A stretch of DNA of 64,000 bases from Variovorax paradoxus NBRC 15149 (lineage in GTDB: Bacteria; Pseudomonadota; Gammaproteobacteria; Burkholderiales; Burkholderiaceae_C), in NCBI RefSeq assembly GCF_001591365.1, contig NZ_BCUT01000005.1, positions 682,001 to 746,000 of the forward strand, read 5' to 3'. Every line of letters begins with the position of its first letter. Positions within the stretch are counted from its first letter, which is position 1. A program made the translations under genes and the position numbers. This document shows positions 17,177 through 51,309 of this stretch, one piece after another. The notes beneath the pieces are model-generated. The model worked only from the letters and a program-made list of their open reading frames with translations, was not told the DNA's origin and searched no databases.

Positions 17177-17212
17177 GCGGCCCCGTTCGGTCCGCTCCGG
17201 TTCTTATAAAAA

Positions 17213-17245
17213 ACGGCATCGCTTTGCGGCGGTGCCGTTTTTTTT
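17213..17245 (+). terminator. Rho-independent terminator after the aldehyde dehydrogenase gene
   Basis: ACGGCATCGC (17213-17222) pairs with GCGGTGCCGT (17229-17238) with one G-T pair, followed by eight T. Strong and correctly placed 37 bases after the stop. Confidence 0.9.
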
Positions 17246-17260
17246 GTCCTTGTTTTTTCA

Positions 17261-17363
17261 GGGCGCGCTCCCGCCGACGGGGTACGCGGCGAAGCGAATG
17301 TCCTCCGGCCTGCGGCCTCCCCCTTGATTTCGCTGCGCAAGGCACCCCATCGACGGGAGCGTG
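17261..17363 (-). repeat. Foldback repeat, copy C
   Basis: Imperfect palindrome. The 20-base outer arms at 17266-17285 and 17342-17361 (CGCTCCCG...) pair with three mismatches. On the minus strand it contains the core GCAGCGAAATCAAGG, a short inner hairpin GGCC-GCA-GGCC and GGACATTCGC. Copies A (17397-17509) and B (51137-51255) share the core but have different stem sequences. Confidence 0.75.
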
Positions 17364-17396
17364 ATCAGAGCACTGGTTGATCAGCGGTGCACCACG

Positions 17397-17509
17397 AGCG
17401 TGCCCAGGTGCACAGGGCATCGGGTGCTCCCCGCAGCGAAATAAAGGAGGAGCCGAAGGCGGGGGACATTCGCGGAGGGGAGTACCCGGTGGCCTGTGCA
17501 CGCGCCCTG
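17397..17509 (+). repeat. Foldback repeat, copy A
   Basis: About 113 bases, near-identical to copy B at 51137-51255. The long imperfect arms are 17408-17442 (from GTGCACAGGGCATCGGGT) and 17468-17501 (ending CCTGTGCAC). Between them lie the AGCGAAATAAAGGAGG core and an inner GCC-GAA-GGC hairpin. It lies 34 bases from copy C, in the opposite orientation, between the 3' ends of the aldehyde dehydrogenase and mgtA genes. Together with the terminator, these copies occupy the 362-base gap 17177-17538. Confidence 0.85.
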
Positions 17510-17538
17510 AACAACAGCGCCAAGAACAAAGCAAAACA

Positions 17539-49972: not shown

Positions 49973-51116
49973 GCTCGAACCGCGCCCGGAGCTGTCGCGC
50001 TTCTGGACCTTTGCCTCGCCGATCCTCGCGCTGCTGATCACCGTGCTGATCGGCGTGGCGCTGTTCGCCGCGCTCGGCAAGGACCCGGTCAAGGGCCTCT
50101 TGGTGTTCTTCTACGAGCCGATCAAGAGCGGCTATGCGATCGGCGAGCTCACGATCAAGGCGACGCCGCTGCTCATCATCGCGCTCGGGCTGGCGGTGTG
50201 CTTTCGCTCCAACGTCTGGAACATCGGCGCCGAGGGCCAGTTCGTGTTCGGCGCCATTGCCGCGGGCGGCGTCGCGCTGATGGCCGACAAGAGCACGGGC
50301 TCGTGGATCGTGGTGGCCATCCTCGTTGCGGGCACGGTCGGCGGCATGGTGTGGGCGGGCATCGTGGCCTTCCTGCGCGACCGGTTCAACGCCAACGAAA
50401 TCCTCGTGAGCCTGATGCTGGTGTACGTGGCCACGCTGCTGCTGGGCTACATGGTGTTCGGCCCCTGGAAGGATCCGCAGGGCTACAACTTTCCGCAATC
50501 GAAGACTTTCGAGGCGGTGACGCAGATCCCGCGGCTCTTCAAGGGTTCGCGCGTGAGCATCGGGCTGATCATCGCGCTGCTGGGCGTGGGCGCGCTCTGG
50601 GTGTTCCTGTTCCGCACGCGGGCAGGCTTTGCGCAGCAGGTCGGCGGGCTCGCGCCGGCGGCCGCGCGCTATGCGGGCTTCTCGGCACGCCGCGCCATCT
50701 GGATCGCGCTGCTGACCTCGGGCGGCGCGGCGGGCCTGGCCGGCGCGCTCGAAGTCGCCGGCCCGCTCGGCCAGCTCACGCCCTACGTGCCGGCCGGCTA
50801 CGGCTTCGCGGCCATCATCGTGGCTTTCGTCGGCCGGCTGCATCCGGTGGGCATGGTGTTCTCGGCCATCCTCATGAGCATGTTCTACATCGGCGGCGAG
50901 CTTGCGCAGTCGCGCCTGGGCCTGCCCAAGTCGCTGACCGGCGTGTTCCAGGGTTTGCTGCTCTTCACGCTGCTGGCCTGCGACACCTTGATCGCCTATC
51001 GCATCCGCCGCAAGGCCGCGGCAAAAGCGGCGGCTTCCGCGGGAACGACGAGTTCGCTGCAAGCCAGCACGCCGCTGACGGCGCCGGCCGTGCGTTCGAC
51101 CGAAGGAGTGCTTTGA
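49965..51116 (+). CDS. ABC transporter permease 1 (BPL_transp_2 family, YufP-like)
   Basis: A 383-residue membrane protein with about 10 helices, starting MLKLEPRPELSRFWTFASP. The conserved VCFRSNVWNIGAEGQFVFGA and NANEILVSLMLVYVA mark permeases of purine-nucleoside importers. It overlaps the ATPase stop by 8 bases. The C-terminus is a soluble tail rich in Ala and Ser. After its stop comes a 193-base gap filled mostly by foldback repeat copy B before the second permease. Confidence 0.94.
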
Positions 51117-51136
51117 ATGGCCCGCCGCACAACAGC

Positions 51137-51255
51137 AGCGTGCCCAGGTGCACAGGGCATCGGGTGCTCCCCGCAGCGAAATCAAGGAGGAGGGGGCGCA
51201 GCCCCCGGGGGACATTCGCGGAGGGGAGTACCCGGTGGCCTGTGCACGCGCCCTG
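51137..51255 (+). repeat. Foldback repeat, copy B, inside the ABC importer operon
   Basis: About 119 bases, sharing almost all of copy A (17397-17509). Its inner hairpin is extended to GGGGGC-GCA-GCCCCC (51192-51206). Outer arms pair GTGCACAGGGCATCGGGT with ACCCGGTGGCCTGTGCAC at 16 of 18 positions. It lies between two permease genes that normally sit a few bases apart. The frame of the second permease stays open through it. Confidence 0.85.
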
Positions 51256-51309
51256 GACACGAGCGCCCGAAGACAACCGAACAACGAAACGCACGGGGAA
51301 GCCAGTGAC

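Follow-up and report, generated by a model that had tools for sequence, protein, structure and literature searches.

A composite palindromic element in the genome of Variovorax paradoxus NBRC 15149 is, in our judgement, probably a non-autonomous mobile DNA element of REPIN-like build, made of two much larger hairpins, recognised as folded single-stranded DNA and surviving where it is compatible with operons. The stretch of DNA analysed (64,000 nucleotides, hereafter the window) contains the three copies C, A and B of a foldback repeat at the positions reported in the initial annotation, which had also described the inner hairpins correctly (GCC-GAA-GGC in A, GGGGGC-GCA-GCCCCC in B and GGCC-GCA-GGCC in C). 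The outer arms of A and B do differ from those of C and all three pair as it had claimed, but A and B have the same outer arm, which leaves only one comparison within the window. A common core is likewise present in all three, with the correction that A has GCGAAATAAAGG where GCGAAATCAAGG had been noted, and the core of this copy carries AAATAAAGG, deviating from the earlier description. The pairing of the repeats, their mobility and their orientation in operons had not been seen. C and A form a single head-to-head element and B is a solo arm (Table 1). The strict core pattern had two matches in the window (B and C) versus 0.00 expected. Folded as RNA on the strands of Table 1, the three copies gave z-scores of -5.6, -6.2 and -4.5, with 0 of 200 shuffles as good for each copy, and the opposite strands of the same copies gave -3.4, -3.9 and -2.1. 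A hairpin resembling a terminator, with a run of T, adjoins the composite element at 17210-17250 of the window.

Table 1 Features of the repeat family in the window; the end points of the composite are where identity to the most similar genomic copies stops
Feature	Position	Strand	Remarks
Composite element, C and A arms head to head	17257..17511	none	ends TTCAGGGCGC ... GCGCCCTGAA on the two sides
C-type hairpin arm	17266..17361	-	outer stem CGCTCCCG...CGGGAGCG; core 17294-17333
Inter-arm centre	17362..17407	none	46 bp, recurrent GATCAAC, differs among copies
A-type hairpin arm	17408..17501	+	outer stem GTGCACAGG...CCTGTGCAC; core 17436-17473
Copy B, solo A-type arm	51148..51247	+	core 51176-51219
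63-codon open frame across copy B	51117..51308	+	stop TGA 51114-51116 just before

The core shared by all arms, from Comamonadaceae to Xanthomonadales, is GCGAAATMAAGGRGGA ... GGRGGACATTCGC. An arm reads in order as an outer stem of ~25 bp, GCGAA, AT-M-AAGG-R-GGA, the inner hairpin, GG-R-GGACA, TTCGC and the outer stem again, and the inner hairpin has G first, C last and a length of 7 to 26 nt. The cores were picked by pattern, so that their constancy is partly by construction, and the stems are free of such selection. Among 246 distinct arms we found 73 distinct inner hairpins, and of the 1176 inner positions that were scored 1083 were paired. The two R positions vary together, as a purine pair would (A.G in 193 arms, G.A in 44, A.A in 6, C.G in 2 and G.G in 1), with a Fisher p of ~1e-40 for the four purine cells, relatedness being ignored; many of the arms compared are related, so these counts do not represent independent events. 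When the arms were thinned at 85% outer-stem identity, the 73 remaining were 84-96% paired at stem positions 4 to 26, and over all 30 stem positions pairing reached 81.5% versus 38-43% when the register was slid by 1 to 3. For 26 arms from many genera, 95.0% of the cells were paired compared with 37.2-42.5% in slid registers. Changes on both sides were found in 25 of the 31 pairs of this set (shuffled mean 20.2; 2 of 500 shuffles reach 25) and the covariation score was 0.708 versus 0.183 after shuffling (reached by 0 of 500) and at most 0.136 in slid registers, the core helix and the first inner pair being invariant in these arms and uninformative on pairing either way. The outer stem and the inner hairpin change freely yet stay paired around a fixed core. 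The proposal of a selected RNA or DNA structure made in the initial annotation is supported: covariation is present by our own count on the 26 arms, and the number of distinct arms and inner hairpins speaks against copies of one recent insertion.

The whole genome (6.66 Mb, 16 contigs) has 69 exact matches to the narrow core pattern and 109 (54 + 55) with one position freed, while the reversed-pattern control gave 0 for both. Around the 69 exact matches there are at least 43 distinct head-to-head composites, a lower bound since a further 40 matches were only partly covered; in the set of 42 composites used below, one composite with an identical core-to-core stretch was merged. Within a sample of the genus, 46 of 61 Variovorax genomes contain the pattern, with 0 reversed-pattern matches, and a covariance model, with stricter filters and hits counted up to 63, found matches in 49 of the 61 and none in the other 12 genomes (species). 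Farther away, a family sample of 150 genomes had the element in 19, and a phylum sample of 299 had it in 4, namely the own genome, two more of the same family and one of another order (G238). The 80 stretches listed, of 118, include Variovorax, Ramlibacter, Rhodoferax, Hydrogenophaga, Pseudorhodoferax, Xylophilus and Brachymonas, together with Lysobacter, Luteimonas, Thermomonas, Stenotrophomonas, a Xanthomonas MAG and a Stagnimonas MAG. Head-to-head pairs also occur in other genera, with different stems, and in G238. A plasmid or phage origin was rejected: with positions 17255-17520 of the window as query, only three large Variovorax replicons matched among 72,556 plasmid records and none of 50,697 phage records did, and no viral contig contained the exact core pattern.

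Six relatives were searched with the joined flanks of 12 loci of the genome, and with most of those of a 13th, and 40 stretches covering 11 loci were aligned for occupancy. At 7 of these 11 loci (L001, L004, L007, L010, L013, L022 and L038) at least one relative has a clean empty orthologous site, indicating that the element is mobile. L010 is empty in five relatives, where its two genes are nearly touching, and L022 is empty in the two nearest relatives and occupied in G042. The arms at L027, L030 and L044 were occupied, partial or otherwise arranged in the relatives. L044 lies between convergent genes and has C on the left and A on the right in four relatives (L275-L278), opposite to the own genome, which suggests repeated insertion or inversion. 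At L035 the core and arms are absent from G042 (L270) and two tail-like GTTGTTC motifs are kept, a possible excision footprint. L011 and L016, at different places, are identical from core to core (183 bp), with unrelated tails and identity lost ~38 nt outside the cores. This could reflect recent copying or gene conversion; the latter could explain the identity but not the empty sites.

In the 14 most similar pairs of equal length, identity drops ~38 nt beyond the cores, giving the ends TTCRGGGCGC and GCGCCCYGAA. As candidates for the terminal inverted repeats of a classical MITE of a DDE transposon, these ends hold for the own genome and did not turn up among the arms compared from other genera. 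The outer tails are unlike between otherwise identical copies, though absent from the empty sites, and the junctions given here are therefore provisional. L007 and L010 have ATGA on both sides when set against their empty sites, which at L007 read TGA(A/C)ATGAAA. This might be a target-site duplication, but ATG there is also a start codon. At co-directional sites T is scarce in the outward tails (3.6% for the A side and 11.9% for the C side, versus ~17% farther out). A reiterated tail motif, GCGCCNNGAAC, was discarded as a general feature, since beyond 45 nt from the core it is present on 8 of the 42 A sides and on none of the 42 C sides.

The orientation of the copies relative to genes, with gene strands called by a codon-usage heuristic, is biased. 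With the C arm drawn on the right, the flanking genes of the 42 composites were (-,-) in 30 cases, (+,-) in 8, (+,+) in 4 and (-,+) in 0, so that the co-directional orientation C to A prevails 30 to 4 (binomial p 6e-6), with 8 convergent sites and no divergent one. Other Variovorax gave 11 versus 1 co-directional, 2 convergent and 0 divergent for 14 typed loci; these come from 24 pairs in named loci, of which 14, all Variovorax, could be typed as A/C with enough flank, 7 were untypeable and 3 lay near an end. One untypeable pair from another genus (L162) is flanked by divergent genes. Arms without a partner by the exact pattern (n=43) were convergent in 16 cases and divergent in 5, and the co-directional ones showed no clear bias (13 sense versus 9 antisense).

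Of the 30 co-directional loci, 20 have an ATG between -1 and +6 relative to the upstream stop codon, compared with 2 of 8 convergent loci; for +20 to +27, taken as a control, the count is 1 of 30. A start codon (ATG/GTG/TTG) at -4 to +25 opens a frame through both hairpins in 24 of the 30, and in 14 the frame ends no more than 8 nt from where the next gene has its first in-frame ATG, the remaining loci being without this; the corresponding counts in other Variovorax were 7 of 11 and 4 of 11. Copy B is the clearest case (TGA-ATG, 63 codons, TGA-C-ATG): it starts directly after the stop of an upstream 383-aa ORF and its TGA lies one base before ATG 51310, which we take as the start of the downstream gene. 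Both neighbours are presumably ABC permeases. Of the 30 loci, 10 had 2 sense open frames through arms and centre, 15 had 1 and 5 had none; on the antisense side 2 loci had 3 such frames, 4 had 2, 9 had 1 and 15 had none. At the 12 convergent or opposite sites there were 2 sense frames in 3, 1 in 5 and 0 in 4, and 1 antisense frame in 5 and 0 in 7. Since sense openness is also found at these sites, it need not be an adaptation to operons, and the open frame may be selected or merely tolerated. Three of the ORFs from the encoded frame had no match in Pfam and NCBIfam at E 0.1, and for these three a known protein was rejected.

In two genomes the arms stand much farther apart (2.9-3.0 kb). In G048 (L234 1592-4662) two arms ~3 kb apart, with identical inner hairpins, enclose a gene with a TIR_2 domain and the gene of a 274-aa protein of unknown family. 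In G065 (L281 1200-4188) the arms, again with identical inner hairpins and the only pattern matches in the whole genome, enclose a gene for an AAA/ORC-CDC6-like ATPase and a 290-aa gene, whose product has an R-x4-H stretch, presumably as in HEPN RNases. The PADLOC matches, all to a single cargo protein, were weak (E 0.00099 and 0.0078). These two candidate cargo forms suggest that the arms may bracket genes; a search for an empty site of the G048 form located its right flank in many relatives and the left flank never beside it. A third wide pair (L282, 7.3 kb apart, with unlike inner hairpins) was left out of the cargo count. The cargo ATPase was rejected as a general partner, as it has matches in 7 of 399 family genomes, with the core present among those 7 only at the own locus of G065, and the match in one of the 7 (G625) spans residues 1-39 only, equivalent to arm read-through in the query. 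A bolder version of the mobile-element reading would make this a new, Y1-independent class of single-stranded DNA hairpin transposon, whose arms bracket either the 46-bp centre or TIR-domain/AAA-ATPase pairs and which enters operons just behind an ATG at stop-start junctions, a translationally coupled mini-cistron passing the ribosomes to the following gene; we regard it as possible, if rather doubtful.

Alternatively, the element might be a REPIN moved by the Y1 (RAYT-type) transposase of the genome, that is, ordinary REP biology with unusually large hairpins. The inverted hairpin pairs, the strand-specific hairpins and the intergenic sites do match REPINs as they appear in the available portions of PMC3116915. 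However, the design typical of REP/REPIN sequences, a palindrome of 20-50 nt after a conserved tetranucleotide that is mostly GTAG (available portions of PMC8266576), is absent here. The tetranucleotide whose last base is the first of the core reads GCAG in 212 of 246 arms and GTAG in 7, inside the hairpin and not before it, and 11 of the 246 have a GTAG in the 30 nt 5' of the core. The own genome has a single Y1 gene. In all 57 genus loci examined Y1 is near the same neighbouring gene, which we take to be a methyltransferase, and no core-bearing arm was found near it in any of them (flanks mostly ~1.5 kb each side); a loose pattern gave three matches in two loci, all without the core. Y1 is present in 58 of the 61 genus genomes, including all 12 that lack the element by the model. 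Y1 scores are lower in the element-free genus genomes, which may only follow the species tree. In the family sample of 150 genomes a Y1 match accompanies the element in 18 of 19 genomes versus 94 of 131 without it, a weak association (Fisher p 0.045) that counts one genome (G207) matching only at E 3.6e-4. Copies without any Y1 match were found in G034 (1 contig, 99% complete, 15 model matches), in the family-sample genome G080 (100% complete, 14 pattern matches) and in the less complete G018 and G021, although old copies could outlive a lost Y1 gene. Synteny, co-occurrence and neighbourhood do not support RAYT as the mover, and we consider this explanation unlikely. As the Y1 gene is unlinked and does not co-occur consistently, the mobilising enzyme is not pinned to Y1, the candidate examined, and no such enzyme was found. 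At the conserved place of Y1/RAYT (L031 1171-1866) a different repeat-like stretch lies downstream of the gene (TTTTATTCTGACC ... GGAATCTGACCCC).

The preference for single-stranded DNA comes mainly from the strand that folds. At stem positions 4-26, G.T and A.C cells stood at 171:7 for the A arms (n=84), 185:6 for the C arms (n=64) and 204:28 for the others (n=98), with 103, 41 and 126 other mismatches, respectively. In the thinned set of 73 the ratios were 6:2 (4 A arms), 23:1 (6 C arms) and 124:25 (63 others). An A.C cell is the view of a G.T pair from the other strand, which indicates that in each arm it is the plus strand whose folding is maintained. At co-directional sites the strand of the C arm is antisense to the mRNA in 30 of 34 cases, the A arm being sense. 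The C arm is thus antisense in the transcript and still wobble-asymmetric, so that folding of operon mRNA does not explain it, and the strand evidence favours single-stranded DNA over an mRNA role. A structured RNA in operon mRNAs (attenuator, stabiliser or protein-binding RNA) that is mobile by chance would agree with the strong orientation to transcription, the A arm in the sense strand and the internal loop AAGGRGG, but besides the C arm it is contradicted by the partnerless arms, so often convergent and with no clear sense bias, and by the lack of an Rfam family at threshold, and we find it quite improbable. The AAGGRGG/AAGGAGG of the loop (e.g. window 17436-17473) is presumably complementary to the 16S 3' end; the C arm places the reverse complement of AAGGAGG in the transcript. 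A protein-binding or supercoiling site of BIME type, with pairing kept as cruciform DNA, would fit the intergenic location, the 0 divergent sites among the 42 composites and the ability of the whole element to fold on either strand as one long arm-to-arm hairpin, but is very improbable, as cruciform pairing would not split G.T from A.C per arm and the 12 sampled Variovorax species without a model match also stand against it.

Under the mobile-element reading, a trans-acting recombinase or nuclease would recognise each arm as folded single-stranded DNA, reading the unchanging, purine-rich internal loop together with the GCGAA/TTCGC clamp. The stems would only have to hold the shape and could for that reason drift with compensation, and the location of the arms on opposite strands would let either strand present one properly folded arm. 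New copies would survive where they are harmless, between convergent genes or at the stop-start junctions of operons, where the C arm would come first and the A arm last, with the frame often open to or near the next start codon.

The comparison with Rfam that the initial annotation had proposed was run with Rfam 15 over the window and gave 0 matches at the gathering score; a relaxed threshold produced only matches at E 0.16-0.72, below gathering, and a known RNA family was rejected. A search of the open-access literature with six 14-15-mers of the core had as its sole match an enterovirus paper that is not relevant. The core is not described in the available portions of the REPIN, RAYT and MITE literature (including PMC2817692, PMC8266576, PMC2759123 and PMC3116915), and the word Variovorax is absent from the main text of PMC3733652 and PMC10969869. 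The repeat family is thus absent from Rfam and from the open-access literature searched by core sequence, and an earlier description elsewhere, such as in subscription literature, is possible. What makes it useful is that it is abundant, with more than 100 core matches in the own and some other genomes, and that its covariation and strand asymmetry let selection at the DNA level and at the RNA level be told apart. With it one can also test directly by what route bacterial palindromic repeats spread in the absence of their usual RAYT partner, and in what way operons tolerate insertions between nearly touching genes.

Several known systems share part of this architecture. The palindromic elements of Rickettsia are inserted inside genes and tolerated in translated contexts; this tolerance is similar, but the element described here lies between genes and has a separate frame. 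Integron attC sites are folded single-strand hairpins of conserved shape and drifting stems, which is also the likeness to our arms, and are recombined by IntI at RYYYAAC/GTTRRRY boxes, none of which was seen in the invariant core. The ERIC/RU-1, RU-2 and RU-3 MITEs are palindromic mobile sequences of 100-170 bp readable as open frames (available portions of PMC2759123); they are enterobacterial, whereas here only the core is fixed between genera, and the two are set apart by description. The Chunjie MITE of Geobacter is a 235-bp repeat in an operon, one copy of which it disrupts according to the available review text (PMC10969869), while the title of a work on Chunjie cited there speaks of an operon structure not disturbed. 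As portrayed in that text, Chunjie has conserved terminal inverted repeats and direct repeats, unlike the present stems, which are wholly different between genera. From REPINs the element differs in its arms of ~95 nt with a fixed internal-loop core, instead of 20-50 nt with GTAG (available portions of PMC8266576 and PMC3116915), in not being next to a Y1 gene and in having copies in genomes without a Y1 match. It nevertheless shares with them two inverted hairpins as the dispersed unit, strand specificity, high copy number and an intergenic location, and we read it as REPIN-like, of a new family.
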